In this document: piece by piece, positions 28,059-55,852 of the stretch
Layout: the number at the start of each line of letters is the position of its first letter
Position numbering within the stretch: position 1 is the first letter of the stretch
From: Marinobacter zhejiangensis
Lineage (GTDB): Bacteria; Pseudomonadota; Gammaproteobacteria; Pseudomonadales; Oleiphilaceae
Direction of reading: 5' to 3'
DNA length: 64,000 nucleotides
Assembly (NCBI RefSeq): GCF_900114775.1
Contig: NZ_FOUE01000004.1
Span: forward strand, 248,001-312,000
Translations under genes and position numbers: made by a program
The notes under the pieces: generated by a model
Told to the model about the DNA's origin: nothing
Databases searched by the model: none
What the model saw: only the letters and a program-made list of their open reading frames with translations

Positions 28059-28082
28059 TTGACGGTCAGCCCTGACCGTCAA
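28059..28082. repeat. 11-bp inverted repeat over the prsT stop codon
   Basis: TTGACGGTCAG and CTGACCGTCAA form a perfect stem with a two-base loop that includes the prsT stop codon (28066-28068). On the minus-strand message it comes directly before the other spacer hairpins. It may be a partial terminator or 3' stabiliser that reduces read-through into xrtA. Confidence 0.6.
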
Positions 28083-30786: not shown

Positions 30787-30807
30787 TACTTTATATCCTT
30801 GAATTTC

Positions 30808-32196: not shown

Positions 32197-32243
32197 AAGT
32201 CCTTTTTGTAGGGTGATGTCATATCACTACAGATTCTTAACTG

Positions 32244-32281
32244 AACCCCTGTCCATTGCAATCATCATCAGGGGGTTTTTT
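32244..32281 (+). terminator. Terminator-like hairpin antisense to the prsK-prsR operon
   Basis: CCCCTG (32246-32251) pairs with CAGGGG (32269-32274), and on the plus strand a run of six T follows. All genes here are on the minus strand, so a plus-strand terminator would stop antisense transcription. For the sense transcript the hairpin in the prsK-prsR spacer lacks a T run. The stem is short and the loop long. Confidence 0.3.
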
Positions 32282-32293
32282 AAATTGCGCCAA

Positions 32294-34411
32294 TCATTTG
32301 GCGTGCCTGGCAGGGGGTTCTGCGTCATATTTCCCGCGCGGAGTCGCGGTGTCCGCCATGGCAATGGGGAGGCGGACCGAAAAGCAGGAGCCAACGCCTG
32401 GTTCGCTGGTGACGTCGATATTTCCTCCAATTTTGCGAACGTATTCGCGGGCCTGATAGGCGCCGATTCCCATGCCTGTTAGGCCTTTGGTGCTTTCGAA
32501 CGGTTTAAAAAGCTGAAACTTGATGAATTCTTCGGTCATTCCGGACCCTGTGTCCTGCACAAACAGGGCGGCCTGGCCCTCCGACGTTTTTAACGTCAGC
32601 GAGACCTCGCCCTCGGGCCGGGTTGCATCCTGGGCATTCTGGATCAGGTGGCCCAATACACTTCTGAGCTGCTCCTGGTCTGCGTCGACAAAGACCGGGG
32701 CTGGCGCTGGTTTGAACTGTGGGCTCGGCTGACCTTTTTGGTGCTGCTCGCAAAGCTGGGTCACGAGACAGTTGAGATCCACGCAGCCAGTTTCGTCGGA
32801 GTCATCAATGGGTTTTCGGATGTGGTCGACCAGTCGTGACATTTTGCCGACGGCATGCTCGGTCGTCAGGATCATGTCGTCGATAAAGGCTGGGTTCGAT
32901 TTGTGGCGAGACGCATTGTTTACCAGTAGCGTAAGTTGGGCAATCAGCGTTTTCAGGTCGTGGACCATAAAGGCGGAAGCTTTGCTAACGGCTTCGAACT
33001 GCATGGCTCGAGACAGGCGGCTCTGGGCATCATCCTGGGCCAAAAGGTTGCAGGTCTGCCGCGCAACGACCTTGATCAGGTCGAAGTTTTCCCAGTTAAG
33101 TTCCACTTTTGCATAGGGCGTACCGATCAGGGTAAGGCCGTACAGGTCGTTGCCCAGGTACATGGGAATAACAAGCCAACCATCCCGGAATTTGGTGATT
33201 GCATCCGGGATTTCCAGAAGGTTGTAGCGAACAGGGTCCTGGCGATACTCCTCAAGATTGATGATCCACTCCCGCTCCTGAAGAAAACGAATGAGTTCGG
33301 ATTGGCTGTCAATGGTGGTGTACTTGGGGGTGGCCATGTTGACGGCTGTCTGAAGCGCAAAGTTGCCGTCTTCATCTCGCAGCCAGAGGACGCCAGAGTT
33401 GCTTTCCACTAGCCCCCCCAGGATGCGGATAACTCGCTCAGGCAGCGGAGGGCTATCGCTCAGGTCAGCGAGCTGACGGGTCATCTTCAGCCATTCTTCG
33501 CGGTAATCGTATTTGTAGTCGAAAAAGTTCTGACTGATGAAAATCATCAGGCGTGCGCGGATTCGTTGGGATGTGGCCAGAAGAACAAAAAAGGCAATTG
33601 AGCCGGTAACGAACAGAACTTGCAGGGCGTTGCCCCAGTTGCCGCCCATAACTTTGACATAGTATCCGCCGATGGCCAGCAAGATGAGGTATAGGCCTGC
33701 AAAGGTGAGGGCGCCGACGTGGTAGACCGCCGTGCGGGACAGTTGAAACTCGATGGGCTGCTTTCGGGTATTGACGACATTAACGGCGAGCAGGGGGACA
33801 ACCAGAGCGGAAACAAAGCCGCGGGCATCCCAGAACGAATCGGCGATCTGACCGAACAGCAGCGCGTCGGAGTACATGAAGAAATCAAAGGCCATCAGCG
33901 TGCTGATACTGATGCAAATGTACTTCAGGCTCGATCGTCCCATCGAGCCAAAGTTTCGCCAGATTTGTTCGACCAGGGATAGCCCCAGCAGTGTCAATGC
34001 GATCTGCCCGACCACTTTGGTTTTTCCGTCGACTATGGCTATGCCGAAGGCATACTCAAGAACGCCAAAGGTGATCAGCAAGATGACGAGAGTAATGGTT
34101 GCTGCGCTGAGGGCGTGGCGGACCTTGCCCATAAATTGGCCAGTACGGGAGGCGTCTCGTAACAGTGCCAATAGAACGGCAATCCAGCTGGCATCGCGAA
34201 CCAGCTCCAGTAGATAGCGCAGGAAAAAGCCCGGTTCTGACCAGAGGGCCTGGGACACGAGTGAAAAGGACCAGACTGATGTCACCAAGGCGGCGAGAAG
34301 CATGGACCGATCCACGTCCCGTCGAAGGTATTTGCCCGCAATCAGAATTGCGAGCAAGAGATACGCCAGTGCCGCCAGTGAATGGCTGATCACCGTAAGG
34401 TTTGTCACCAT
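32294..34411 (-). CDS. prsK: PrsK: membrane histidine kinase of the exosortase A system
   Basis: The 705-residue protein has about eight N-terminal membrane segments (residues 5-290), a GAF-like domain (about 315-455), a dimerisation/phospho-acceptor region with VHDLKTLIAQL near residue 480, and a histidine-kinase ATPase domain (N box HLIQNAQDAT, G boxes DTGSGMTEEF and GMGIGAYQ). The membrane-GAF-kinase layout is that of PrsK, which senses an unknown envelope or metabolic signal and phosphorylates PrsR. It is cotranscribed with prsR (97-base spacer) and follows the SDR gene by 27 bases. The ATG at 34411 is followed directly by a GTG, so the start could shift by one codon. Confidence 0.93.
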   Translation of the reverse strand: MVTNLTVISHSLAALAYLLLAILIAGKYLRRDVDRSMLLAALVTSVWSFSLVSQALWSEPGFFLRYLLELVRDASWIAVLLALLRDASRTGQFMGKVRHALSAATITLVILLITFGVLEYAFGIAIVDGKTKVVGQIALTLLGLSLVEQIWRNFGSMGRSSLKYICISISTLMAFDFFMYSDALLFGQIADSFWDARGFVSALVVPLLAVNVVNTRKQPIEFQLSRTAVYHVGALTFAGLYLILLAIGGYYVKVMGGNWGNALQVLFVTGSIAFFVLLATSQRIRARLMIFISQNFFDYKYDYREEWLKMTRQLADLSDSPPLPERVIRILGGLVESNSGVLWLRDEDGNFALQTAVNMATPKYTTIDSQSELIRFLQEREWIINLEEYRQDPVRYNLLEIPDAITKFRDGWLVIPMYLGNDLYGLTLIGTPYAKVELNWENFDLIKVVARQTCNLLAQDDAQSRLSRAMQFEAVSKASAFMVHDLKTLIAQLTLLVNNASRHKSNPAFIDDMILTTEHAVGKMSRLVDHIRKPIDDSDETGCVDLNCLVTQLCEQHQKGQPSPQFKPAPAPVFVDADQEQLRSVLGHLIQNAQDATRPEGEVSLTLKTSEGQAALFVQDTGSGMTEEFIKFQLFKPFESTKGLTGMGIGAYQAREYVRKIGGNIDVTSEPGVGSCFSVRLPIAMADTATPRGKYDAEPPARHAK

Positions 34412-37322: not shown

Positions 37323-37435
37323 GGTGGCTCCGCTGGTGCCTCCGCAACAATAAACCGTGAACCCGGTCAGGCCCGGAAGGGAGCAGCCGCAGCGGTGGAC
37401 TTGTGTGCCGGAGTGTCGCTGGTGGAGTCACCCCC
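37323..37435 (+). ncRNA. ffs: Signal recognition particle 4.5S RNA
   Basis: The conserved domain IV hairpin is present: GGTCAGG, CCC, the GGAA tetraloop, GGG, AGCAGCC (37366-37389). The ends pair (GGTGGCTCC at 37323 with GGAGTCACC ending near 37433), and further bases between them pair in the usual way. The size, about 113 nucleotides, fits the short bacterial form without an Alu domain. It binds Ffh and targets membrane-protein ribosomes to the inner membrane. Its place directly upstream of dnaX is the same as in Pseudomonas. Ends are estimated to within a few bases. Confidence 0.93.
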
Positions 37436-42812: not shown

Positions 42813-44576
42813 GTGGTGAATCGAGCTCTGCTCTGTCTGTGTCTACTTTGGGTGTTGGTGCTGCCCGGGCAGGTAAGCGCCGGACAGCCCATGCCACAAA
42901 TCCCGGAGGGGCGGGATGTTCGCATCATCGTGGACATCTCCGGGTCGATGAAGCAGACCGACCCCCTCAATCTGCGTCAGCCTGCTGTACGTCTGTTAGC
43001 GCGAATACTCCCTGGCGATTCCACGGCAGGCATCTGGACGTTTGGGCAATACGTCAACATGCTGGTTCCCCACGGTGCCGTTAATGACGCGTGGCGGGAG
43101 CGGGCTATTGAGCGTTCGCGCCAAATCAACTCCGTCGCGCTTCGTACCAACCTGGGTAAAGCCCTTGAGGTAGCCAGTGATAGCTATTTCACCCAAGGTG
43201 ACCTGAGCAATACCCACTTTATTCTGCTCACCGATGGCAAAATTGATGTCTCCGATGATGGGGCCCTAAACGATCAGGAGCGGGCAAGGGTCCTCAGTGA
43301 GGTGTTGCGGGGGTTGTCCGAGGCGGGTGCCACCATCCATACCATCGGACTGTCCGAGGCCGCAGACATAAATTTGCTGCGGGCATTTTCCGATCAGACC
43401 GGGGGCAATTTCAGCCTTGCGGAGTCAGCCGAAGAGCTCAACCATGCCTTCCTTCGTTCACTGAATTCGGCAGTTCCCCAGGAGCAAATTCCGCTTGAGG
43501 GTAACAGCTTCCTGGTGGATGACGGTGTTGAGGAGTTCACTGCCCTGATTTTTGGTGGTGCGACGTCCAGGGGGGTGACCCTGGTCAGTCCCGGGGGAGA
43601 GGAGCAGAATTCAAGTCGTCACCAGGCGTCGACGCGCTGGTTTCGTGAGCCTGGCTACGAATTGATCACTGTTACCGATCCCGATGCTGGTGAGTGGTCG
43701 GTTCAGGGCGCTTTAGGGGATGGCAGCCAGGTAACCGTCGTCAGCAATCTGAAGATGGTGTTGTCGCCTCTGCCTACCCGCTTCACCGAACAACACCCCG
43801 TCGTTATTGAAGCCGTGTTCTATGACCAGGCTGATCCGATTACCGATCCGGAATTCCTTGGTGTTATTGACGTCACGGTCACACTGACGTCGGCGGACGG
43901 ACGATCCGGGACTAAGACTCTATCGGCGGATCAACCGCCGCAGGACGGCGTCTATCGGGACGAGATTAGCCGCCTGCCGTTTGCCGGTGAATTCACCCTG
44001 GAAGTTGTGGGTAACGGAAAGACGTTTTCCCGGAAATACAGTCAGACTTTGACCTTTGATGTGGCCGAACCGGAACAGTCTGTTTTGGCATTGCCTGATG
44101 GCGATGATGTGACTGGTTCCGATTTGGCTAACTCTACTATGGATAGTGTAGAGCCTGACCTATCGCCAGTTACCCCAGCCATAGCACCGATTGATGTGGC
44201 TCAGGTCGAATTACCAAGCCCTATAGCTCCGGTAGAGGCAGACGCGCCCGCGAACCTGGAGTCTGACGGGGAGGGATTGAATGCCTGGTACCTCGTAGGT
44301 GGTAGTGTTGTTGGCCTGGTGGTTCTTGCCGCTGGCTTGTTGCTGGTATGGCGGCAGAAGGCCAATTCTTCTGGTGTTGATGCGGCTGAGCCTGAAGGTG
44401 GCGATGAGGTCCTCGATACCGATGAACCAGCCATCCCCGAGCTGGACGAGCAGGTCATTGACGAAGAAGAGTTTGGCCTGGTGGATTTCGACCTTTCCGA
44501 GGTTGAAGGTGGCGAAGATGAGGGCCAATCCCAGAGCCATGACCGAGACGGCGGCGGAAGGAATGGGGGGCAGTAA
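42813..44576 (+). CDS. Membrane-anchored VWA-domain protein
   Basis: The 587-residue protein starts at a GTG, has a signal peptide ending near VSAGQ, and a von Willebrand A domain (about 35-225) with the metal-site motif DISGSMKQ near 47 and LLTDGK. Beta-rich domains follow (about 230-430), then an acidic stretch, one membrane segment (YLVGGSVVGLVVLAAGLLLVW near 492) and an acidic cytoplasmic tail. Most of it should be periplasmic. It may bind a protein ligand through the metal site and report to, or be assembled by, the MoxR ATPase encoded next. Confidence 0.85.
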   Translation: MVNRALLCLCLLWVLVLPGQVSAGQPMPQIPEGRDVRIIVDISGSMKQTDPLNLRQPAVRLLARILPGDSTAGIWTFGQYVNMLVPHGAVNDAWRERAIERSRQINSVALRTNLGKALEVASDSYFTQGDLSNTHFILLTDGKIDVSDDGALNDQERARVLSEVLRGLSEAGATIHTIGLSEAADINLLRAFSDQTGGNFSLAESAEELNHAFLRSLNSAVPQEQIPLEGNSFLVDDGVEEFTALIFGGATSRGVTLVSPGGEEQNSSRHQASTRWFREPGYELITVTDPDAGEWSVQGALGDGSQVTVVSNLKMVLSPLPTRFTEQHPVVIEAVFYDQADPITDPEFLGVIDVTVTLTSADGRSGTKTLSADQPPQDGVYRDEISRLPFAGEFTLEVVGNGKTFSRKYSQTLTFDVAEPEQSVLALPDGDDVTGSDLANSTMDSVEPDLSPVTPAIAPIDVAQVELPSPIAPVEADAPANLESDGEGLNAWYLVGGSVVGLVVLAAGLLLVWRQKANSSGVDAAEPEGGDEVLDTDEPAIPELDEQVIDEEEFGLVDFDLSEVEGGEDEGQSQSHDRDGGGRNGGQ

Positions 44577-44764
44577 TCCGGGCATTTGGCTTGGGGTACG
44601 GACGGGTTGGTCTTTGCTGGGATCGACAGCAGGCGTTTAGGAAGATAGCATCCTATCAAGAGAGCCTCTGAGCTGGATGTGCAGAGGCTAATAACTGACT
44701 CGCTGACATCGGGCGTTTGATTACGGCGCCCCAGCGGCGGATATCACGACACAGGACTTTGATA

Positions 44765-45607
44765 ATGAAGTTTACCGGTACCGAAAACTACGTCGCCACC
44801 GGCGACCTGCAAATGGCGGTTAACGCGGCGATTGCACTGCAACGCCCGCTGCTCATCAAGGGTGAGCCGGGTACCGGTAAGACGTTATTGGCGGAAGAAA
44901 TGGCGTCGGCATTGGGAATGAGGCTTATTCCCTGGCATATCAAATCGACCACCAAGGCCCAGCAGGGCTTGTATGAGTATGATGCGGTATCCCGTCTACG
45001 GGATTCCCAGCTGGGTGACGAAAAGGTCAAGGACATCCGTAATTACATCGTCAAGGGCAAACTCTGGGAAGCCTTTGAGGCAGACGAACAAGTGGTTCTG
45101 CTCATCGATGAGATTGACAAGGCAGATATCGAGTTCCCTAACGACCTGCTGCTGGAACTCGACCGGATGGAGTTCTTTGTCTACGAAACCCAGGAATTCG
45201 TTAAAGCCAGGAAGCGCCCCATTGTTGTCATCACCAGTAACAATGAGAAAGAACTGCCGGACGCCTTCCTGCGCCGTTGCTTCTTCCATTACATCAACTT
45301 CCCGGACCACGACACCATGCAAAGCATTGTTGAGGTCCACTTTCCGAACATTCAGCAGGAAATCGTTCGCGATGCCCTTGAACTGTTCTTCGATGTCAGG
45401 AAGGTTCCGGGCCTGAAAAAGAAGCCGTCCACCTCTGAACTGATTGATTGGCTTAAGCTGCTCATGGCAGATGACCTTTCTGCCAAGCTGCTCCAGGAAA
45501 AGGACGCCAGCTCCGCGTTGCCGCCGTTGTACGGAGCGCTGGTCAAGAACGAGCAGGACGTGCACCTGCTCCAGAAACTGGCCTTTATGGCCCGCCGACG
45601 TGGCTGA
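44765..45607 (+). CDS. MoxR-family AAA+ ATPase
   Basis: The protein has about 280 residues from the ATG at 44765 (AGGA eight bases upstream); an earlier in-frame start at 44717 gives an unlikely basic extension. Walker A is GEPGTGKTLLAEE, Walker B VVLLIDEIDKAD, sensor 1 VITSNNEKELPD, and an arginine finger region LRRCFF. MoxR ATPases work with VWA proteins as chaperone-like machines that activate or assemble client complexes. A CoxE-type VWA protein follows 55 bases later and a membrane VWA protein precedes it, so this is a MoxR-VWA set. Confidence 0.92.
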   Translation: MKFTGTENYVATGDLQMAVNAAIALQRPLLIKGEPGTGKTLLAEEMASALGMRLIPWHIKSTTKAQQGLYEYDAVSRLRDSQLGDEKVKDIRNYIVKGKLWEAFEADEQVVLLIDEIDKADIEFPNDLLLELDRMEFFVYETQEFVKARKRPIVVITSNNEKELPDAFLRRCFFHYINFPDHDTMQSIVEVHFPNIQQEIVRDALELFFDVRKVPGLKKKPSTSELIDWLKLLMADDLSAKLLQEKDASSALPPLYGALVKNEQDVHLLQKLAFMARRRG

Positions 45608-45662
45608 GGGTTTAAGGTGAGCGTTTGTTTGCCAAAATTCACCCTGTTTACTGGGGGCGGTC

Positions 45663-46841
45663 ATGCTGATTGATTTCTTCATGGAAGTCAGGCGAGCCAA
45701 GGTACCGGTGAGCCTGAGGGAATTCCTTGATCTGCTGGAAGCGCTGAAAGCCAGGCTGGCGTTTGCAGATATGGAAGAGTTCTACTACCTGGCTCGACTC
45801 TGTCTGGTCAAGGACGAGCGCCACTTTGACAAGTTCGATCGGGCGTTCGATGCCTATTTCAAGGGCATTGAGAACCTGGATGCCTTGCTGGAAGCCCTGA
45901 TTCCCGAGGACTGGCTTCGTGCCGAGTTTGAAAAGCAGCTTAGTGACGAAGAGAAGGCAAAGATCGAGTCACTTGGTGGCCTGGAAGAGTTGATTGAAGC
46001 CTTCAAACAGCGGATGGAAGAGCAGAAAGAGCGCCACCAGGGTGGGAACAAGTGGATCGGTACAGGCGGGACTTCACCGTTCGGGGCCAATGGCTATAAT
46101 CCGGAAGGGTTCCGTATTGGCCAGAAGGATGGGCGACAGGGGCGTGCAGTCAAGGTTTGGGAGAAGCGGGAATATCGTGACCTGGATGACAGCATTACCC
46201 TGGGAATCCGCAACATCAAGGTTGCCCTTCGGCGGTTACGGAAATTTGCCCGCCAGGGGGCTGCTGATCAGCTTGACCTTGATGACACGATTTCATCGAC
46301 AGCAAGGAACGCCGGTTTTCTCGATCTAAAAATGGTCCCGGAGCGACACAATGCGATCAAGGTGTTGATCTTCTTTGATGTCGGTGGATCCATGGACCCG
46401 CATGTACGGGTTTGCGAAGAGCTGTTTTCAGCCGCACGACTCGAGTTCAAACACATGGAGTACTTCTACTTCCATAACTTTGTCTACGAGAGTGTCTGGA
46501 CCAACAATATTCGCCGTATGAATGAAACCACCGATACCTGGGAAATTCTCCGTAAGTATTCGCCGGACTACAAAGTGATTTTCGTCGGTGATGCCACCAT
46601 GGCGCCTTATGAAATTACCCATCCAGGTGGCTCCATTGAGCATTGGAATGAGGAAGCTGGTGCGACCTGGTTTCAGCGGATAACGGATCATTTTCGCAAG
46701 GTGGTCTGGCTGAACCCGCTGCCTGAGAGTTATTGGGGCACGGGGGGCTCACTGGGCATTACCAAACAGCTCATTAGTGACCACATGTACCCCCTGACCA
46801 TTGATGGCCTTGAATCAGCCATGAAACAGTTGAGCAAATAG
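45663..46841 (+). CDS. CoxE-like VWA-domain protein, MoxR partner
   Basis: The 392-residue cytoplasmic protein has an N-terminal helical region, a Gly-rich linker (about 125-155) and a C-terminal VWA domain with the metal-site motif FFDVGGSMDPH near 240 and VIFVGDATM. No signal peptide or membrane segment is seen. The family pairs with MoxR ATPases, for example in carbon monoxide dehydrogenase maturation, though no such target is encoded here. Start at the ATG at 45663 behind GGGGGCGG. Confidence 0.88.
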   Translation: MLIDFFMEVRRAKVPVSLREFLDLLEALKARLAFADMEEFYYLARLCLVKDERHFDKFDRAFDAYFKGIENLDALLEALIPEDWLRAEFEKQLSDEEKAKIESLGGLEELIEAFKQRMEEQKERHQGGNKWIGTGGTSPFGANGYNPEGFRIGQKDGRQGRAVKVWEKREYRDLDDSITLGIRNIKVALRRLRKFARQGAADQLDLDDTISSTARNAGFLDLKMVPERHNAIKVLIFFDVGGSMDPHVRVCEELFSAARLEFKHMEYFYFHNFVYESVWTNNIRRMNETTDTWEILRKYSPDYKVIFVGDATMAPYEITHPGGSIEHWNEEAGATWFQRITDHFRKVVWLNPLPESYWGTGGSLGITKQLISDHMYPLTIDGLESAMKQLSK

Positions 46842-47161: not shown

Positions 47162-47710
47162 ATGACGTTGGGAATGATCAGTAAGCGTCTTTCATCGTTT
47201 CGAGTTGCAGGTACTCTGGCTTTAACGCTTTTACTGGGGCTGGGTTGGCAGCAGGGGCTGGCGGATGAGGGGCTGGATGCCCGGATCGAACAGCTGAAGG
47301 GTGAGGTTGCGGTGCTTAGCCAGGAATTGCTGGAGCTTCAGGAAGCGACACTGTTTCCGGCAGATACCCGTGTCTTTCTTTTTCTGTCCCTCGTGAACAA
47401 AGATGCTCTTGTACCGGAAAGCATCGAAATAGCGATTGATGGTCGCCCAGTCGCCACTCACCTCTATAGCCCTCATGAAAAAGAAGCACTGCAGCAAGGC
47501 GGCCTGCAAAGGCTGTACGCAGGAAACCTGGCCGTTGGTGAGCATCGCCTCGAAATCAAACTGGCGGCACAGACCGGGAATGAGCGATACGTTCGACGGG
47601 AATCTGAACTGATGTTCCGTAAACGGGCCGGCGAAAGCAGCATCGAGGTTCAATTGGGCGCAACGGCACCAGATTTTGAACCCACCATGACACTGCAGGA
47701 CTGGCAGTAA
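47162..47710 (+). CDS. Secreted coiled-coil protein, first gene of the envelope operon
   Basis: The protein has about 182 residues from the ATG at 47162; a TTG at 47141 or an ATG at 47174 are other possible starts, none with a clear ribosome site. A signal peptide (LALTLLLGLGW... cut near GLADEG) is followed by a short coiled coil (ARIEQLKGEVAVLSQELLELQE) and a beta-rich domain (FLFLSLVN, IEIAIDGRPVATHLYS, GEHRLEIKLAA). I do not recognise a named family. It should be periplasmic and may oligomerise through the coiled coil. It is separated by 13 bases from the next TPR gene. Confidence 0.8.
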   Translation: MTLGMISKRLSSFRVAGTLALTLLLGLGWQQGLADEGLDARIEQLKGEVAVLSQELLELQEATLFPADTRVFLFLSLVNKDALVPESIEIAIDGRPVATHLYSPHEKEALQQGGLQRLYAGNLAVGEHRLEIKLAAQTGNERYVRRESELMFRKRAGESSIEVQLGATAPDFEPTMTLQDWQ

Positions 47711-47723
47711 GGTTGGTCAGGCC

Positions 47724-49406
47724 GTGTTCCCTATGAAGTTACGAACCTCATCTTCTTGTCTCCATTCGGTCATTGTTGCAACAGCGATGGGTATTGGGCT
47801 GTATGCGGCTTTCTCCATGCCAGTACATGCCGCTGGGATGGACGACGATCAGATCCGAGTGCGCTTGGCACAGTTTAGTTCCGCAGGCAGCCGCTATCCG
47901 GAGACGTTGGCGTTCTTGGGGGAGGTTGAGTCTCCGACCGCTCAGCTCCTACGCGCCAAATCCATGATCGGTACCGGACGAACCGCCGAAGCGGTCCCGC
48001 TGCTGCAACAATTAACACGAGGCGACCGCCACCGCGGACAAGCCTGGTTGTTGTTAGCTCAAGCCGGAATGGTAGGGCGTGCGGACGTTGATATTGACGA
48101 CGCACTTCGCAATGCCGAACGGCTTGGGCACGGCGAAACACGCGAACAAGCCCGATTCTACCTGGCCGAATCGTTACGAACCCATGCTCAGCCAGACCGG
48201 GCCGGGCAAGTGTTGGCGACCATGGAACCAGGGTACTGGGCTGCTATTGGTTACCAGAATATTGCGGCTGATTACGCGCAGCTTGACGGTTCTCCTTCGC
48301 GATCATTGGTTGCGCTCCGTGTGGCACTTGCCCTGCTTGCGGAGGACGATGATGCCGAGCGAGCACGCGCGTTGAAATCTGAGCTGTTTTTGCAGGCAGG
48401 ATACTTGGCCTATCGTGCTGAAGACTTCGCTAAGGCCGAAAGCTTCCTTAGGGAAGTGTCACTCGACAGCTACAACACTCCCCAGGCGCTCTATTTCCAT
48501 GGGCTTGCCTTGGCCGGCCGTCAAAACTTCCGGGAAGCCATGCAATCCTGGCATCGGGCGAAAAAATATTCCCTGGCGTTACCCGGTGTGGCGGATGCCT
48601 GGCTTGGAATGGGGCAGGGCTACGACGAGCTTGGTTATCTGGGTCAGGCCGGTGAAGCGTTTCTGGCGGCCAACGCGGCGTTTGAAAGTGAGCGGGTGAC
48701 CTTGAAGTCACTGATTGAACAGGTACAGCAGCAGGGCGCCTGGTTAGCGATGGCACAGGCCGCCCGCGCCACCGACCTTGAGTGGTTTCTGGCCGACAGC
48801 CAATCGCTGGCCCAGCCAAGGCGTGCCTACCTGCTGAGGTTTGCCGAGACCGGGGGCGGCCAACAAGTGATTAACCGGGTTGCGACGTTGTTTAGCCTGT
48901 CGAATGAGCTCGACTCCCGATACGAGGACCTGCAAATTTTCAGGCAGGCTGTTCAGCAACGGCTGAATGACCTTCCGTCCGAATCCTACCTTGATGACCA
49001 GCGCGTTCAGGCGGATCCCAGGATCGCGGGGCTGGTTGACGCACTGAAAACCATTGGCCCCAGCGCCAGTGGTGATCAGCGGCGGCAGCTTGAAGGGTTG
49101 GCGCAAACCCTTGCCGATTTGCGCTTTGCCTACCAACACCTGCCGGAGCAACAGCCAATGGCTCGTCGGCGGCTGAGGGAGCTTGACGGTAAGTTGGCCA
49201 GCATGAGCGAGGCTATCGAAGCATTGAAACGGCAGGTTGCCGGGATTCAGCGGCAGGCGGAGCAGGCGCTGGATCAGCAAATGGTCGCCTTCCTTGAAAG
49301 CGAGGGCGAGCGAATCGAGTTCGCCCAGGACCGTGCAGAGCAACATCTTGCGTACCTATACGAACACCTGGCTCTTCGCAATCTCAATCAGGGTGACAGG
49401 GAATGA
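47724..49406 (+). CDS. Periplasmic TPR protein with C-terminal coiled coil
   Basis: The 560-residue protein has a signal peptide ending at VHA-AG near residue 37 and TPR-like helical repeats (about 50-330; RAKSMIGTGRTAEAVPLLQQL, ADAWLGMGQGYDELGYLGQAGEAF). A long C-terminal helix (about 480-545, ELDGKLASMSEAIEALKRQ) looks like a coiled coil. The GTG at 47724 has AAGGTTGG eight bases upstream; an ATG at 47733 is an alternative. It overlaps the next gene by four bases. As a TPR scaffold next to TolQ/TolR-like genes it fits a trans-envelope complex. Confidence 0.85.
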   Translation: MFPMKLRTSSSCLHSVIVATAMGIGLYAAFSMPVHAAGMDDDQIRVRLAQFSSAGSRYPETLAFLGEVESPTAQLLRAKSMIGTGRTAEAVPLLQQLTRGDRHRGQAWLLLAQAGMVGRADVDIDDALRNAERLGHGETREQARFYLAESLRTHAQPDRAGQVLATMEPGYWAAIGYQNIAADYAQLDGSPSRSLVALRVALALLAEDDDAERARALKSELFLQAGYLAYRAEDFAKAESFLREVSLDSYNTPQALYFHGLALAGRQNFREAMQSWHRAKKYSLALPGVADAWLGMGQGYDELGYLGQAGEAFLAANAAFESERVTLKSLIEQVQQQGAWLAMAQAARATDLEWFLADSQSLAQPRRAYLLRFAETGGGQQVINRVATLFSLSNELDSRYEDLQIFRQAVQQRLNDLPSESYLDDQRVQADPRIAGLVDALKTIGPSASGDQRRQLEGLAQTLADLRFAYQHLPEQQPMARRRLRELDGKLASMSEAIEALKRQVAGIQRQAEQALDQQMVAFLESEGERIEFAQDRAEQHLAYLYEHLALRNLNQGDRE

Positions 49407-52237
49407 CGATCGTTCGCCATATCCGTCGTGCGTTGGCTGCCGGTACCCTGATGGGCAGTGCAATCTGGGCTCCAGCAATATCCGCCCAAGAGTCATTCCA
49501 GGTTAATCTGAATCAGGATGGCGACACCATCGGCGATATGCGCCCGGTGTACCTGCAATACCGCGCACAGGCTTTACCAGCAATCTCCCCCAGGGAGGCC
49601 GCCAGGCGATACCAGCAATTATTTGAGCAATCCGATGAGCCGGAGGTTCGGATTGACGCGCTCAACCGGCTGTCTAATCTTCAGCAGCTGGCTGAGGAAG
49701 ACCTGCGTTTCTCCCCGGAGAAAGAGATGGAGGTCTATCAGGATGCGCTCGGCAGCTATGACGAGATCCTCGGTCGGGGAGCTTTTCAGGGCCGCCTGGA
49801 TGAATTGCTGTATCAAATGGCGAAGGCCCATGCCTATGTTGGGCAAAACCCGCAATCGATCGCCCGGTTGAAGCAAATGGTCGGGCTGTATCCGGATTCA
49901 AGTCTTGTTCCCGAAGCTCGCTTCCGTATTGCCGAAGCGGCATTTTCTGCCGGCCAGTATCGGGAGGCCGAACTCATGTACCGGCAAGTCCTGAATGACA
50001 CGGCGGCTTCCGAACAGCGGTCATCCCAGAGCCTCAACGACAAAGCCCACTACATGCTGGGCTGGGCTCAATACAAGCAGGGGGCTTTTGGTAGGGCTTC
50101 GGCGAGTTTCCTGGAAGTGCTCGACAAGCAGAATGAACGCACCCAGGGGTTTGGCGCTATTCCGGCGGCGTCGCTGGATATGATTGATGACACGTTCCGA
50201 ATTATCGCAATCATGGCGGCCAAACAAGGGGGAGAGGCCGCTCTGGGCGCTATGCTCGATGGCACCCCAGATCGTGGCTATGTGAGTTTACTTTATGACC
50301 GCTTGGTGGATTTCTATGTGGGCACGGGGGAATACCTTGATGCCGTCGAGGTGGCGAATGCTTTTATCGAACGCTACCCAGACAACCGAGGTGTGCCTGC
50401 GTTTCGTGTTCAGAACGTCGATGTGTTCATGGCGAGCGGGGATAGCGTTCGTGCTTGGCGGGCAAGGGAATCGTTTGTTGAAGCCTACCAGTCGTCGATG
50501 GCCTTCGAGTCCCTCGGGGATCCTGAACGCCAGCGCTGGTGGGAATACTGTCGTATGGTTGCGGATCACTACTACCGGCAGGCCAGTGAAGGCGGTGCCC
50601 CGGCAACTGTGAAGGCTGGCTTCTCCAAGGCCTCTGGCTATTACGCGGTATTGGCAGACCGGGTAGCAGATGCAGGAGAGATATTGCGGCTAGCGGGAGA
50701 TTCGGCACTTCAAGCCGGGGATTACCCCGCGGCAAATCGCTACTACCGGCGCGCAGCGTATAGCGCCGGCTCTTACCCTGGAGCGGCGGATGCGGGCTGG
50801 GCGTCGTTAATTCTCGAGCGAGAAGGGCTAGCAGAAGGTAGCACTGGGCTTGTGGATCTTCCGGGCTATGCCGCCAGCGCGGACCGGTTTGCACTGGCGT
50901 TCCCCGATGATCACCGGTTGGGTGAGCTTCAGGCTGACGTCGCCGGTCGGTTGCTGGCCGCCAATGACTATGCTGGCGCTGATCGCTTTGCAGGGCTTGC
51001 TATTGGCAACGCCGGAGAAGATAGCGGCATTCAGTACAATGCTTGGTTGGTTGCGGCTGAGTCACTTGGTGCACTGGCTCGTCATTCTGACGCTGAACAC
51101 GCCTGGAGGCAGGCGCTGGCCCTGACGGCAGTTGGTTCAGTGGTTGTCTCGGTGGAGGAAGCTCAGACATTGAACCGCCAACTGGCAACCAGTATCTATC
51201 GTCAGGGGGAGGTCGCTGACCGGTCAGGTGATCTTGATCGGGCAATTGCGCACTATCAGCGGATTGAAGCCGTTGCTCCGGGGTCTGAGGTTGCGGTCAA
51301 AGGGCGATTTGACGCAACCAACGCATTACTTCACGGCGAGCGCTGGCAAGCCGCCATTAACGAGCTCCAGCGGTTTCGGCAGGACTACCCGGCTGATCGC
51401 CTGACCCCACAAATATCGGAAAAGCTGGTCTACGCCTACCAGGCATCTGGACAGCCCGTGCGGGCGGCGGATGAGCTGGTACAGCACGGTTCGGGTGATT
51501 GGCAAACCCGGTTAAGGGCGGCTGAGCTTTATCACGCCGGGGCTGCCGAACCTTCACGTAATGCAATCTATCAAGCATTCCTGGCCCAGGGCATTGTGGC
51601 GGATAGCCCGGATGCACACATCCAGCATCAGCGTATCCGTCAGCGGCTCGTAGAAAGCGCCGGGGAGGCAGAGCGTGGGGATGGCCTTAGGCGCGATATC
51701 GTCGAAACGGAACAGGCAAGCCGCTGGCACAGTGAGGAAACCCTGGCCTGGGCAGCTCAGGCTGCGCTTGCTTTAGGAGTTGAAAGCGCCGAACAGTTTG
51801 AGGCCATCGCGCTTGTTTACCCGCTTTCCGAGTCCTTGGCTAAGAAACAACGGCTTATGGAAAGTGCCAAGGCGTATTTCAACCTGATTCAGCAGTTTTC
51901 CGATGGTCCCTTGTATTCCGAATCCCTCTACCGCCGTGCGGAGCTGTACCGTGCTATGGCCCGCGACTTGATGGCGTCCAGCCGCCCGCCTGAGCTGACC
52001 GAGCTCGAACTGATGCAGTACGAGATGCTCCTTGAGGAGCAGGCATTCCCGTTTGAGGAGCTGGCGATCGAAGTGCATGAAGAGAATCACCAGCAGCTGG
52101 CGCAAGGGCAGTTTGATGAATGGGTGCAACGGAGCCTGCAGGCGCTGGCAGAGCTCCACCCAGGACGCTACGCCCGAGAGATGCAATGGATGGGGTGGGA
52201 CAACAAGAGTGTGACCCAGAGGGAAGACGATGCTTGA
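49403..52237 (+). CDS. Large periplasmic TPR protein
   Basis: The 944-residue protein has a signal peptide ending near ISAQES (residue 32) and helical TPR repeats through most of its length (for example LYQMAKAHAYVGQNPQSIARL, RIAEAAFSAGQYREAELMYRQV, RQGEVADRSGDLDRAIAHYQRI). It overlaps the preceding gene by four bases and the next by eight, so translation is coupled. Large TPR proteins of this type occur in the Myxococcus Glt apparatus, where they span the periplasm. No catalytic motif is seen. A scaffold role is inferred. Confidence 0.88.
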   Translation: MTIVRHIRRALAAGTLMGSAIWAPAISAQESFQVNLNQDGDTIGDMRPVYLQYRAQALPAISPREAARRYQQLFEQSDEPEVRIDALNRLSNLQQLAEEDLRFSPEKEMEVYQDALGSYDEILGRGAFQGRLDELLYQMAKAHAYVGQNPQSIARLKQMVGLYPDSSLVPEARFRIAEAAFSAGQYREAELMYRQVLNDTAASEQRSSQSLNDKAHYMLGWAQYKQGAFGRASASFLEVLDKQNERTQGFGAIPAASLDMIDDTFRIIAIMAAKQGGEAALGAMLDGTPDRGYVSLLYDRLVDFYVGTGEYLDAVEVANAFIERYPDNRGVPAFRVQNVDVFMASGDSVRAWRARESFVEAYQSSMAFESLGDPERQRWWEYCRMVADHYYRQASEGGAPATVKAGFSKASGYYAVLADRVADAGEILRLAGDSALQAGDYPAANRYYRRAAYSAGSYPGAADAGWASLILEREGLAEGSTGLVDLPGYAASADRFALAFPDDHRLGELQADVAGRLLAANDYAGADRFAGLAIGNAGEDSGIQYNAWLVAAESLGALARHSDAEHAWRQALALTAVGSVVVSVEEAQTLNRQLATSIYRQGEVADRSGDLDRAIAHYQRIEAVAPGSEVAVKGRFDATNALLHGERWQAAINELQRFRQDYPADRLTPQISEKLVYAYQASGQPVRAADELVQHGSGDWQTRLRAAELYHAGAAEPSRNAIYQAFLAQGIVADSPDAHIQHQRIRQRLVESAGEAERGDGLRRDIVETEQASRWHSEETLAWAAQAALALGVESAEQFEAIALVYPLSESLAKKQRLMESAKAYFNLIQQFSDGPLYSESLYRRAELYRAMARDLMASSRPPELTELELMQYEMLLEEQAFPFEELAIEVHEENHQQLAQGQFDEWVQRSLQALAELHPGRYAREMQWMGWDNKSVTQREDDA

Positions 52238-52883
52238 CATCAGTTCATACCGATTGCGTCTACTGTTGCGAGCTGTGGCCATTGCCGCGATCGCCGTGGC
52301 GGCTCTCAACGGGTGCGCGAGCTCGGCAGTAAACCCAGGGGCGGCGTCCCAAGCCGCCATCCCAGCGGTGACTGAACAACGGACCTGGGTGCCAGAGCCG
52401 GTCGAACCCCTTGATGAAGCCCAGAGTCAGCTGCTCGATAGTGCAGAAGGAGCCTTGGCCAGTGAAAACTGGGTGATGGCTGCAGAGCGTTTGGAGGCGC
52501 TGGCCAATGCCCGGCCAGATTATGCGTTGGCCAAGGCGCGGCTGGCCTGGGTCAAAGAGCGTCAGGGCGACATCCCGGCGGCAAAGGCGTTGTATCGAGA
52601 GGCCCTGGAGCAGCGCCCTGATGATGTCGTGTCGGTAAACAACCTTGCGTTGTTAATGCAGCGGGAAGGTGGCTTTGGTGAAGCCCGGGGACTTCTTGAA
52701 CAGGGGCTTAAGTACTCGCCTGAAGTTCCAGAGCTACATTTTAATTTGGCAGTGTTGTCAGAGCTTTACCTGCTTGACCTGGAAACGGCGCTGGCCCACT
52801 ACCGGCGTTACCAGGAGTTGTCTGAGGACGAGAATGCCCGGGTTGCCGGCTGGATAGCGGACCTTGAACGGAGGGTTCAATAG
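52230..52883 (+). CDS. TPR lipoprotein
   Basis: The 217-residue protein has a lipoprotein signal (basic start, AAIAVAALNGC near residue 29) and a C-terminal half of TPR repeats (LAKARLAWVKERQGDIPAAKALYREAL, SVNNLALLMQREGGFGEARGLLEQGL). The residues after the Cys (ASS) suggest sorting to the outer membrane. It overlaps the large TPR gene by eight bases and abuts the next ORF. Size and type recall GltE-like lipoproteins of gliding machinery, as an analogy only. Confidence 0.87.
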   Translation: MLDISSYRLRLLLRAVAIAAIAVAALNGCASSAVNPGAASQAAIPAVTEQRTWVPEPVEPLDEAQSQLLDSAEGALASENWVMAAERLEALANARPDYALAKARLAWVKERQGDIPAAKALYREALEQRPDDVVSVNNLALLMQREGGFGEARGLLEQGLKYSPEVPELHFNLAVLSELYLLDLETALAHYRRYQELSEDENARVAGWIADLERRVQ

Positions 52884-53219
52884 ATGACGGCAAAGCAGTT
52901 GGCACTGCTGGCGATGTTAGCGTTGGGGGCTGCCCTTGTATCCGCTGATCCCGTAGTCGATGAGGATGATGCTGGCGGCGGCGAAACGGTCTCTGCGCTC
53001 ACCGTTGAGGGCATCTCTGCGCAGCCGGGCGATGATGATCCTCGGGTTCTGTATATCCTGCCATGGCAGGCCCCAACGATACCTCGTCGCCCCAGGTCGG
53101 AACTGAGCTCCGAGATGCCGGAACTGATGACGCCCATTGACCCGGTGGTGTTCGAGCGTCACCGCAACTTTCGCGAAACCCTGAATCCAGAGCTGGATTC
53201 AATTTACACACCGAACTAG
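52884..53219 (+). CDS. Small secreted protein, unknown function
   Basis: The 111-residue protein has a signal peptide (LALLAMLALGAALVSA) then an acidic Gly/Asp stretch and a short Pro-rich C-terminal part (WQAPTIPRRPRS, LMTPIDPVVFERHRNF). It starts directly after the TPR lipoprotein stop and ends 17 bases before the TolQ-like gene. I know of no family for it. It may be a small partner of the periplasmic TPR proteins. Confidence 0.75.
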   Translation: MTAKQLALLAMLALGAALVSADPVVDEDDAGGGETVSALTVEGISAQPGDDDPRVLYILPWQAPTIPRRPRSELSSEMPELMTPIDPVVFERHRNFRETLNPELDSIYTPN

Positions 53220-53236
53220 AAGGCTGGAGTTAGATC

Positions 53237-53881
53237 ATGTTGGAGACAGTAGTACGTTTTTTCCAGGAAGGTGGCCCGTTCATGTACCCGATCGCTCTGG
53301 TTCTCATGGTTGGGTTAGCGATAGCGATTGAGCGTTTCGTGTACCTGTCCTCGGTTCGCCGGCGTAATCGGGTCGCGTTTGAGAAGGGTATTCTTCCGTT
53401 GTTGCAGAAACGTGATTATCAGCGCGCCATGAAGGCCGCGAACAGCTCCGATAGCGCCATCGCTTCCATCATGGGCGCTGGCATCGGCCGCTTGCTGAAC
53501 AACCGGCGCAGGGAAGATATTGAATACGCTATGGAAGAAGGGCTAATGGAAGTGTTGCCGCGCCTTGAGAATCGCACTCAATACCTTGCTACCCTGGCCA
53601 ACGTCTCAACACTTCTTGGCTTGCTGGGTACGATTATCGGGCTGATTGCAGCCTTTACCGCCGTCGCCAGTGCGGATCCTTCCCAAAAGGCGACGTTGCT
53701 GTCTGAAAGCATCTCCGTTGCAATGAACACAACGGCGTTCGGTTTGATGGCAGCAATCCCACTACTGATGTTCCATGCCCTGCTGCAAACCCGAACCAAC
53801 GACATCGTTGATAGCTTTGAAATGGCAGGGGTGAAGCTGCTCAACATCATTTCGGATCACAATCCGGAACAGGCCGCCTGA
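53237..53881 (+). CDS. TolQ/ExbB/MotA-like proton-channel protein
   Basis: The 214-residue protein has three membrane segments (about 14-34, 112-140, 158-185), with the conserved family stretches LATLANVSTLLGLLGTIIGLIAAF and AMNTTAFGLMAAIPLLMFH. Such proteins form a pentamer around a TolR/ExbD dimer and use the proton gradient to drive a periplasmic partner. It lies directly before two TolR/ExbD genes, as in ExbB-ExbD and AglR-AglQ-AglS sets. The presence of two different TolR-type partners points more to the Agl layout than to a standard Ton system. Confidence 0.93.
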   Translation: MLETVVRFFQEGGPFMYPIALVLMVGLAIAIERFVYLSSVRRRNRVAFEKGILPLLQKRDYQRAMKAANSSDSAIASIMGAGIGRLLNNRRREDIEYAMEEGLMEVLPRLENRTQYLATLANVSTLLGLLGTIIGLIAAFTAVASADPSQKATLLSESISVAMNTTAFGLMAAIPLLMFHALLQTRTNDIVDSFEMAGVKLLNIISDHNPEQAA

Positions 53882-53896
53882 CACGGAGGCTGATCC

Positions 53897-54418
53897 ATGA
53901 GAAGGAGACATCGCAGACTGGTCTCTACACCCGACCTCGACATCACCGCATTCATGAATCTGATGATCGTGCTGGTACCGGTGTTGCTGTTAGGAATGGT
54001 GTTTAGCCAGATAAAGATGATTGAACTCAACTTCCCCGGCATGGCTTCTGGTGAGGCGCCTGCCGCCGACCAGTTCAGACTGTCTGTAGCTTTGATTTCG
54101 GATGGCCTGGAAGTCGCCGACAGCGATCGAGGACTCATCCAGGCATTGCCGATGAAGCAGGGGGGCTATGATTTTGAAGGGTTAAGGGAAGTGCTTGTCC
54201 GTATCAAGAGCGCAGTTCCGGAAAAGACAGATGTCATGCTCGAAGTCGCTCCTGGCATTGATTACCAAAGCCTCGTTACCACCATGGATACACTGCGATC
54301 ATACGAAGCGGTTGTTGCGGCGACTGTGGTTGAGGCCGAGTTGTTTCCCGATGTTTCGCTCGCTGATGCGGCGGAAAATCGAACTCTGGCGGTTGCGGCC
54401 GTAGGAGGGGGGCAATGA
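53897..54418 (+). CDS. TolR/ExbD-like protein 1
   Basis: The 173-residue protein has one N-terminal membrane segment preceded by DLDITAFMNLMIVLVP, whose second Asp is the proton-carrying residue of the family, and a periplasmic domain with VALISDGLEVAD and DVMLEVAPGIDYQSLVTTMD. It should form a dimer inside the TolQ-like ring. It starts 15 bases after that gene and overlaps the second TolR-like gene by four bases. Confidence 0.92.
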   Translation: MRRRHRRLVSTPDLDITAFMNLMIVLVPVLLLGMVFSQIKMIELNFPGMASGEAPAADQFRLSVALISDGLEVADSDRGLIQALPMKQGGYDFEGLREVLVRIKSAVPEKTDVMLEVAPGIDYQSLVTTMDTLRSYEAVVAATVVEAELFPDVSLADAAENRTLAVAAVGGGQ

Positions 54419-54912
54419 AGCTGTCCCGCCGCGCCAAGCGCATGCAACGCCATTACAAGCGGATGCACCGGCCAGGTGGGCTGAACCTGGTGTCACTGAT
54501 GGACATCTTTACGATACTGGTGTTCTTCCTGATGGTGAATTCCTCGGACGTGAAGGTGCTTCAGAATACAGCTGATGTGCCATTGCCGAGCTCGAATGCT
54601 GAACACCAGGCCCGAGACACGTTGACCGTGTTGGTGACCGATGAGGCGATACTGGTCGACGGCCGGGAGGTCGCGAAGCTGTCATCTACTGATCCGGACG
54701 CCGCCACAGTGCCGGGATTGGCAGAAGAGTTGAGTTATCGCCGTGACCGTCACGCTGCGATCCCTGAGGCGGGACTGGAAGTCACCATTCTGGCCGGGAG
54801 GGACACCGAATATCGACTTCTTCGCAGGGTGATGCAGACCTGTGTCGATCACGATTTCCGGCAGGTACGGCTAGCGGTCGAGTCACAGAACGAGGGCGGT
54901 GACCATGGGTGA
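54415..54912 (+). CDS. TolR/ExbD-like protein 2
   Basis: The 165-residue protein has a basic N-terminus, then GLNLVSLMDIFTILVFFLMVNS with the conserved membrane Asp, and a periplasmic domain (LTVLVTDEAILVDGREVAKL, LEVTILAGRDTEYRLLRRVM). It is clearly different from the first TolR-like protein, so the motor may contain both, as AglQ and AglS do in Myxococcus. AGGGGGG precedes the ATG. It overlaps the next gene by eight bases. Confidence 0.92.
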   Translation: MKLSRRAKRMQRHYKRMHRPGGLNLVSLMDIFTILVFFLMVNSSDVKVLQNTADVPLPSSNAEHQARDTLTVLVTDEAILVDGREVAKLSSTDPDAATVPGLAEELSYRRDRHAAIPEAGLEVTILAGRDTEYRLLRRVMQTCVDHDFRQVRLAVESQNEGGDHG

Positions 54913-55852
54913 TCGCTATGGCTCCAGTCTTCCATGGGCAGCAGAAAAGGGAGACCGTGCTCGCTTCGGTAGCATTGTCGTCATCCTCTCTGTGTTGTTT
55001 GTGGGACCGGCGTTGTGGATTCCGTTCGTCGAGCTCCCTGAGCCGGACCGGAGTGAGGCAGAAGCATTGCCGCCTCAACTGGCGAGGCTGATGGAGCGGA
55101 AGCCGTTGCCCGAACCTGAACAGGAGCCAATGGTAGCGGACCCGGAGCCCGAGGAAACGGTGGCGGAGCCGGAGCCGCCCGCGCCTGTGGAGCCTGAGGT
55201 GCGTCCAGCGCCAGCGGTTGCTGACAGGCCCAACGTCGAGCCGCCCCAACAGACGGTTCAGCAGGCCAGGGAGGTCGCTGCGCGATCCGGACTACTTGCG
55301 CTTCAATCACAGCTGGCACAAATGCGTGAGCCGAAAGTAAATGCCCCACAAACCATGACGGCCAATGTGGTCGATGCTTCAAGTGTTCACGCTGATGGGT
55401 TGGCGGAGCCGGGTCCTGAGGTTCTGAGCGGCAGTGGTGGGGTGCGCTCCGAGTCGGTGACGCATAGGGACGTCGAGTTGGCCGGCCACCAGGTGCGTCA
55501 GGTCGAAGATGCGTCGCCTGTCGAGGCTGAGGTCGCACGAGTACCGCCACCAGCCGGGCCGGCACAGCGTGGAATGAACAATATCCGCCAGGTGTTCGAT
55601 GCTCAGAAAACGGCGTTGTATGCCCTCTATCGGAGGGAGCTGCGTCAGGATCCCACGCTAGAGGGCAAGGTGCTGCTTGAGTTGGTGATTGAGCCGGACG
55701 GTCGGGTTTCGCGTTGCGAAGTTATCAGCTCTGAGCTGGGCAACCCGACGTTGGAGTCGCGGCTGGCCAGCAGGGTGTTACTGTTCAACTTCGGGACGGA
55801 AAATGTGGAGCGCAGGACAGTACGGTTCCCAATCGATTTCCTCCCGTCGTAA
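54905..55852 (+). CDS. TonB-like energy transducer with AgmX/PglI-type C-terminal domain
   Basis: The protein has about 315 residues from the ATG at 54905 (a GTG at 54899 is possible). One membrane segment (about 20-40, GSIVVILSVLFVGPALWIPF) is followed by a Pro/Glu-rich rod typical of TonB-like proteins, and a C-terminal domain (about 235-315: YALYRRELRQDP, LEGKVLLELVIEPDGRV, LASRVLLFNFG) of the AgmX/PglI kind, related to TonB-C. It would couple motion of the TolQ/TolR motor to a periplasmic or outer-membrane partner. No TonB-dependent receptor is encoded nearby, which argues against iron uptake. Confidence 0.9.
   Translation: MGDRYGSSLPWAAEKGDRARFGSIVVILSVLFVGPALWIPFVELPEPDRSEAEALPPQLARLMERKPLPEPEQEPMVADPEPEETVAEPEPPAPVEPEVRPAPAVADRPNVEPPQQTVQQAREVAARSGLLALQSQLAQMREPKVNAPQTMTANVVDASSVHADGLAEPGPEVLSGSGGVRSESVTHRDVELAGHQVRQVEDASPVEAEVARVPPPAGPAQRGMNNIRQVFDAQKTALYALYRRELRQDPTLEGKVLLELVIEPDGRVSRCEVISSELGNPTLESRLASRVLLFNFGTENVERRTVRFPIDFLPS

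Follow-up and report, generated by a model that had tools for sequence, protein, structure and literature searches.

A probable Agl/Glt-type operon of Marinobacter zhejiangensis, a lineage-specific paralogue lacking the barrel cassette that accompanies its sister loci

To which class of trans-envelope machine does an operon belong that joins one TolQ-like and two TolR-like genes to a set of periplasmic proteins, and what could such a machine be driving? The question is raised by a nine-gene operon of Marinobacter zhejiangensis that lies in a stretch of 64,000 nucleotides (contig NZ_FOUE01000004.1, positions 248,001 to 312,000; this whole stretch is called the window, and coordinates refer to it) and that an earlier note had read, from the DNA letters alone, as an Agl/Glt-like machine. 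The answer proposed here, to which a probability of about 0.7 is given, is that the operon codes for a proton-driven trans-envelope transducer of the Agl/Glt type, and that it is a lineage-specific paralogue which, unlike its sisters, has no outer-membrane barrel cassette.

The nine-gene operon is real. Its nine open reading frames (ORFs) lie on the plus strand between positions 47162 and 55852 and are spaced by +13, -4, -8, 0, +17, +15, -4 and -14 bp, so that neighbours overlap slightly or stand no more than 17 bp apart, as had been claimed. All nine genes were recovered together with our own models in 57 of the 94 loci read (the window, 20 loci of relatives, L017-L036, and 73 class-wide loci, L155-L227), and the operon is therefore not a chance arrangement; eight loci hold only the quartet tolQ-tolR1-tolR2-gltG, L196 and L226 among them stopping at a contig end, and 29 lack one or more genes, for some of which contig ends or missed, diverged g1 or gltC genes may be the explanation. 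The parts that the earlier note had listed were largely borne out (Table 1): one TolQ-like and two different TolR-like proteins, a TonB-like protein with an AgmX/PglI-type end, a tetratricopeptide repeat (TPR) lipoprotein and two small secreted proteins, g1 and x, neither of which matched a Pfam or NCBIfam family at the thresholds used. Its two large periplasmic TPR proteins fared unequally, since the 944-residue protein exceeds the TPR cut-offs, whereas the TPR-like match of the 560-residue GltC-like protein is weak (23.1 bits, under the Pfam cut-off of 27.2). Pfam and NCBIfam searches of the nine ORFs found no TolA, TolB, Pal or receptor gene within the operon, in agreement with the same note. 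The genes g1 and gltC are fused as a single ORF in loci L025 and L026, suggesting that g1 and GltC may bind each other. An AlphaFold model of g1 (pLDDT 84.4, pTM 0.68) shows a helix and a beta-sandwich; a function drawn from this fold was considered and dropped, the beta-sandwich being a common one whose best match (Z 9.9) is the extracellular domain of PepT2 (96 residues, 2.5 A, 7% identity), with Bacteroides adhesins and transthyretins among the next.

The TolQ-like protein sets this operon apart from the Tol-Pal and Ton systems. In a tree built from 17 hand-picked class-wide TolQ proteins, the host copy from a second locus kind (type C, see below), six of eight further PF01618 paralogues in the host (two were omitted) and the TolQ and ExbB of E. 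coli, it fell inside an Agl-type clade (ultrafast bootstrap, UFBoot, 98), away from both E. coli proteins and those six host paralogues; the opposite placement, of the motor within classical TolQR or ExbBD, did not occur for TolQ. The comparison with Agl/Glt drawn in the earlier note is supported, in part by the profile searches that it had proposed. The top-scoring models on the TonB-like protein are AgmX/PglI, GltJ and GltG, and the AgmX/PglI model (NF033768) was passed, but the equivalog cut-offs were far from reached by GltJ (NF033761, 46 bits against 450) and GltG (NF033760, 39.3 against 650) on this protein, and by gliding_GltE (NF033758, 34.6 against 225) on the 217-residue protein. The putative GltD, GltE and GltC homologues would fit by their sizes, their order and their TPR class. 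The TolQ, ExbB, TolR and TonB models all score below their curated cut-offs on the operon proteins, including the TonB C-terminal models (PF03544, 19.3 against 24.6 bits; TIGR01352, 22.5 against 27.1).

The operon is likely a member of the Agl/Glt core complex kind that was described in Gammaproteobacteria in 2011 (Luciano et al., PMC3169522), so that the machine is not new. It shares with that core the TolQ protein and two TolR proteins, whose gene order is kept among the loci read, a TonB-like GltG, an extra gene, the clustering in one region and, putatively, the GltD, GltE and GltC types, and it differs in that nine genes are present, two of them for small secreted proteins, and in belonging to a diverged, cassette-less paralogue. 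The same paper reports an AglR-GltG interaction in a two-hybrid assay and finds the core duplicated in certain genomes, of which two that it names are Marinobacter. With the Myxococcus AglRQS-Glt system the operon has in common the classes of motor and transducer and the AgmX/PglI-type end, although it lacks a protein as large as GltI (4132 aa, PMC3169522) and has no close barrel beside it; with Tol-Pal and Ton it shares the motor family and the class of TonB-like transducer, but not the TolQ clade, the single TolR or the accessory genes. What is new here is the apparent family restriction of the window's paralogue, its cassette-less site, the association of barrel and motor, the TolR1 asparagine and the uneven divergence, all of which are set out below.

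Within the motor, residues T132 and E32 of TolQ are kept in all 91 aligned sequences and the aspartate of TolR2 in all 93. At the column of this aspartate, TolR1 has an asparagine in 90 of 91 sequences (the other has an aspartate, and one further row is gapped), which aligns with Asp25 of ExbD (chain 6tyi_Y) in a weak match (E-value 0.4); TolR2 gave no meaningful match to solved structures. The operon differs here from the Myxococcus motor, for which a conserved aspartate has been described in each of AglQ and AglS and the question of an AglQ/AglS heterodimer is stated as open (PMC9389320). Because the TolR1 asparagine replaces the ion-carrying aspartate, the pair suggests a one-aspartate TolR1/TolR2 heterodimer forming an asymmetric axle, and this pairing bears on whether AglQ and AglS heterodimerise. 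In the proposed working, a TolQ pentamer (a stoichiometry that we infer) would surround this heterodimer, and protons would pass via the single Asp30 of TolR2. The GltG-like protein, which has a single membrane pass, would take up the motion, and its TonB-like end would span the periplasm and drive a TPR scaffold made of GltD, the lipoprotein GltE, and GltC with its partner g1, along a force path that we likewise infer. In the sister systems this path would probably end at the barrel cassette; in the window's type some other target, in the outer membrane or the cell wall, would have to take its place.

Table 1. Genes of the Agl/Glt-type operon and of its upstream neighbours in the window.
Feature	Position	Strand	Description
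g1	47162..47710	+	182 aa, secreted; predicted helix and Ig/transthyretin-like beta-sandwich
gltC-like	47724..49406	+	560 aa, secreted, weakly TPR-like
gltD-like	49403..52237	+	944 aa periplasmic TPR protein; TPR_2 44.8 bits, TPR_6 41.6 bits
gltE-like TPR lipoprotein	52230..52883	+	217 aa; TPR_19 35 bits; lipobox LNGC by eye
x	52884..53219	+	111 aa small secreted protein; same position in relatives
TolQ/AglR-like proton-channel subunit	53237..53881	+	214 aa; PF01618 (MotA_ExbB) 100.2 bits
TolR1	53897..54418	+	173 aa; PF02472 (ExbD/TolR) 40.9 bits; Asn at ExbD Asp25 position
TolR2	54415..54912	+	165 aa; PF02472 55.5 bits; Asp30 in membrane helix
GltG-like TonB-type transducer, AgmX/PglI-type end	54899..55852	+	317 aa; NF033768 57.9 bits, cut-off 40
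Flanking trio: secreted VWA protein, MoxR-like AAA, CoxE-like VWA	42813..46841	+	identified by Pfam; neighbours in synteny, taken to lie outside the machine

The core itself is widespread. A marker alignment of 19 TolR2 proteins matched 85 of 276 class genomes at an E-value of 0.001, of which 64 were kept by a line drawn at 90 bits, in the gap between their scores (at least 95 bits) and the rest (at most 41), and the window GltG matched at the same E-value in 64 of 195 order genomes. The describers of this core called its task unknown (PMC3169522), and no functional study of it appeared among the literature matches listed, as judged by titles and abstract openings, subscription papers lying outside that scope. 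In a closer set of 19 genomes (the host's own, 12 of the same genus and six of the order), GltG is matched in 14; the window's kind of locus, type A, is found in 11 of the 13 genus genomes and a second kind, type B or C, in 10 of the 19, and two genomes of the genus, G004 and G006, have no match to the GltG of the operon. GltC matches of at least 285 bits occur in six of the 195 order genomes, all of them from the family of the window (nine members of which are listed), and all remaining matches reach at most 52 bits, so that type A looks confined to one bacterial family within the samples searched. A midpoint-rooted tree makes type A the sister of the type B of the same genus (UFBoot 91 in the TolQ tree).

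The sister loci are distinguished by what accompanies the core. Of the seven type B loci, six carry five genes upstream of g1, coding for a PD40/HzsA-like protein, an SH3 protein whose C-terminal part is a barrel, a further barrel, a TlpA-like thioredoxin and a DUF3570 protein; the seventh type B genome, G016, has the same five on a different contig (L231). The three type C loci have a divergent barrel pair and a PD40 gene that follows gltG; neither TlpA nor DUF3570 was seen there within the stretch read. The barrel of the sister loci passes the model TIGR04565 (157.8 and 161.9 bits, cut-off 60), and it gave no meaningful match to solved structures. All 10 relatives that have a type B or C locus, and none of the nine that do not, contain a close barrel, and the PD40 protein follows the same pattern; both genes are absent from the genomes that have type A alone. 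Across the class, TIGR04565 matched 86 of the 276 genomes, 43 of which were kept as being over the cut-off (at least 112 bits), and 41 of these 43 have the TolR2 marker (Fisher p 7e-30, uncorrected for relatedness). The other two have GltD-like matches (311 and 313 bits), and 23 of the 64 marker genomes are without the barrel. Among the best 80 of 268 barrel loci, where many stretches are cut by contig ends, PD40 was found in 79, DUF3570 in 77, TlpA in 74 and g1, within the fetched stretch, in 23; Myxococcus is not represented among these 80.

DUF3570 has been described as an ApbE flavinylation substrate whose gene occurs alongside thioredoxin-like and DUF4266 genes (PMC8238504), and one core locus, L203, was confirmed to have an ApbE gene between those for DUF3570 and g1; clustering of the genes that flank 73 loci gave no family common to many barrel-less loci, the largest being ApbE with 11 of 73. 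The SH3-barrel protein (about 280 aa) and the barrel (about 220 aa) resemble in size and pairing the Myxococcus GltB and GltA, adjacent outer-membrane beta-barrels that bind GltC, for which constructs reach residues 275 and 256 (PMC4488436); this link is made through the model name (OMP_myx_plus), the sizes and the pairing. A plasmid search with the barrel returned no record. The association with a cassette of barrels and a flavoprotein provides a testable output for the sister systems, for which type A would be a natural control, an engine without the cassette.

In an order relative, G018 (L230, L033), the genes run rnd-VWA-MoxR-CoxE-PD40-SH3barrel-barrel-TlpA-DUF3570-g1-gltC and on to gltG, and in the window they run rnd-VWA-MoxR-CoxE-g1-gltC and on, with no cassette between CoxE and g1. 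Since the flanks are the same, type A occupies the same site without the cassette.

Several points weigh against the reading of type A as a cassette-less paralogue of the Agl/Glt type. The cassette may have been lost at the type A site or may never have been present there. A distant TIGR04565-like barrel, in an ORF of about 400 aa scoring 45-63 bits (cut-off 60), is found in all 13 genus genomes, including that of the window (G000:C2:342086-342484, 49.6 bits), and it is at or over the cut-off in six of them, among which are G007 and G010, with type A alone, and G006, with no operon. Counted by that cut-off, a barrel is present in 13 of the 19 relatives and not in 10, contrary to a simple cassette reading, and because of the distant barrel type A may have an outer-membrane partner after all, although this barrel is also present in both G004 and G006, which lack the operon. 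TlpA and DUF3570 were scored at the loci read in the relatives. The TolQ tree did not include Myxococcus AglR, AglQ, AglS or Glt sequences, and what it establishes is a separation from TolQ and ExbB. All counts come from related, non-independent sequences.

In favour of the reading, and a possible sign of re-aiming, is the divergence of type A, which is low at the inner membrane and higher in the periplasmic parts: the ratio of outgroup distances, A to B, is 0.96 for TolQ, 1.11 for GltG, 1.21 for TolR2, 1.25 for TolR1, 1.28 for x, 1.31 for GltE, 1.44 for GltD, 1.47 for GltC and 1.70 for g1, based on 20-22 related sequences per gene and with no significance test.

Some loci are consistent with a motor that is a separable module. 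The type A locus of G008 (L023:14300-14900) is without tolQ, tolR1 and tolR2 and no other gene, x being followed directly by gltG, and a type B locus that includes the motor lies elsewhere in that genome (L032), an arrangement that fits a motor usable in trans. In G070 and G191 (L194, L196) the motor quartet and GltD plus barrel are on different contigs, more clearly so in G070 because G191 is more fragmented; these arrangements also fit a modular motor. The split in G070 and G191 resembles the separate Agl and Glt genes of Myxococcus, where one Agl motor serves both the Glt and the Nfs complexes (PMC3858216). The motorless type A of G008 is comparable to that use of one motor for two Glt-like complexes, and the operon differs from the Agl-Nfs sporulation machine in having no spore-coat or polysaccharide genes. 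The G008 arrangement also favours the least improbable of the rival explanations, in which type A has no outer-membrane output of its own and is a variant arm using the barrels or the motor of a type B or C system, as could be the case in the window's own genome, where barrels accompany a type C locus (L034). Even so it is unlikely, given that G001, G005, G007 and G010 have type A and neither a type B or C locus nor a close barrel.

Cell gliding as in Myxococcus, a process that needs Agl-Glt (PMC3169522), would agree with a motor and transducer of the same class, but four genomes of the genus with type A alone have no close barrel (the distant one being present), and such a function appears quite improbable for this operon. 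No better is the standing of a single system formed by the operon and the trio upstream, in which the VWA protein would be the output, in the manner of CglB, a VWA surface adhesin of Myxococcus (PMC13104615). The trio adjoins type A in nine of 10 genus loci (L017-L025; L026 has MoxR and CoxE and no VWA gene) and also adjoins the cassette-bearing locus of G018. Against this, the complete trio occurs without the operon in G004 and G006, CoxE and a VWA match are each found in 18 of the 19 relatives, CoxE and g1 are 320 bp apart, and the VWA protein, inspected by eye, carries a membrane helix at its C terminus and lacks a clear lipobox. As a specific partner of the machine the trio was rejected, and because of G004 and G006 it is regarded as a neighbour and not as a proven partner. 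A second Tol-Pal or Ton system that energises an outer-membrane receptor or a Pal-type lipoprotein is very improbable, for beyond matches to the TolQ, TolR and TonB-type families and the YbgF- and BamD-like TPR matches of the 944-residue protein, which are below cut-off, it faces the position of TolQ in the tree, models below curated cut-offs, the missing partner genes and two TolR genes that are conserved with the core.

For the Agl/Glt-type transducer preferred here, the task may tentatively be thought of as moving some component of the envelope or surface, or holding it in place, and not as whole-cell gliding, a suggestion that falls short of an even chance. A broader and more doubtful proposal would make the gammaproteobacterial Glt-like core a proton-powered engine for a module of the outer membrane composed of a GltA/GltB-like barrel pair, PD40, TlpA and DUF3570. 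If the core drove this module across the Gammaproteobacteria, the barrels would be an ancient part and not a late myxobacterial addition, and type A would have shed its output at the ancestral site and been re-aimed, with its one-aspartate axle, at a new envelope target.

A few observations concern relatives of the motor and other parts of the window. Type VI secretion genes, identified by Pfam on one example protein per family as TssJ, TssK, TssL, TssM, TagF, a PP2C phosphatase and a Ser/Thr kinase, are followed immediately and on the same strand by an Agl-type quartet tolQ-tolR1-tolR2-gltG in L171, L198, L200, L206 and L208; the five Gammaproteobacteria concerned each hold another core locus, and no title on such a link was among the literature matches listed. 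Pattern scans gave no excess of promoters (1 found, 3.7 expected), terminators (12 found, 9.5 expected) or sigma-54 sites (47 found, 39.9 expected, with 47 reached in 15 of 100 shuffles), and an Rfam scan of the window found only a bacterial small signal recognition particle RNA gene at 37331-37427 (RF00169, 75.1 bits). Upstream of the operon, with its nearest end about 13 kb away, a region on the minus strand at 28066-34411 codes for a TPR protein, a sigma-54 activator response regulator and a histidine kinase (domains by Pfam), which resemble PrsT, PrsR and PrsK of PEP-CTERM/exosortase systems. A plasmid search with TolQ gave three records only, all below 60% identity, and a TolQ-like relative of the window motor is found on the Vibrio alginolyticus plasmids NZ_CP013487.1 and NZ_CP013488.1 (38.8% identity).

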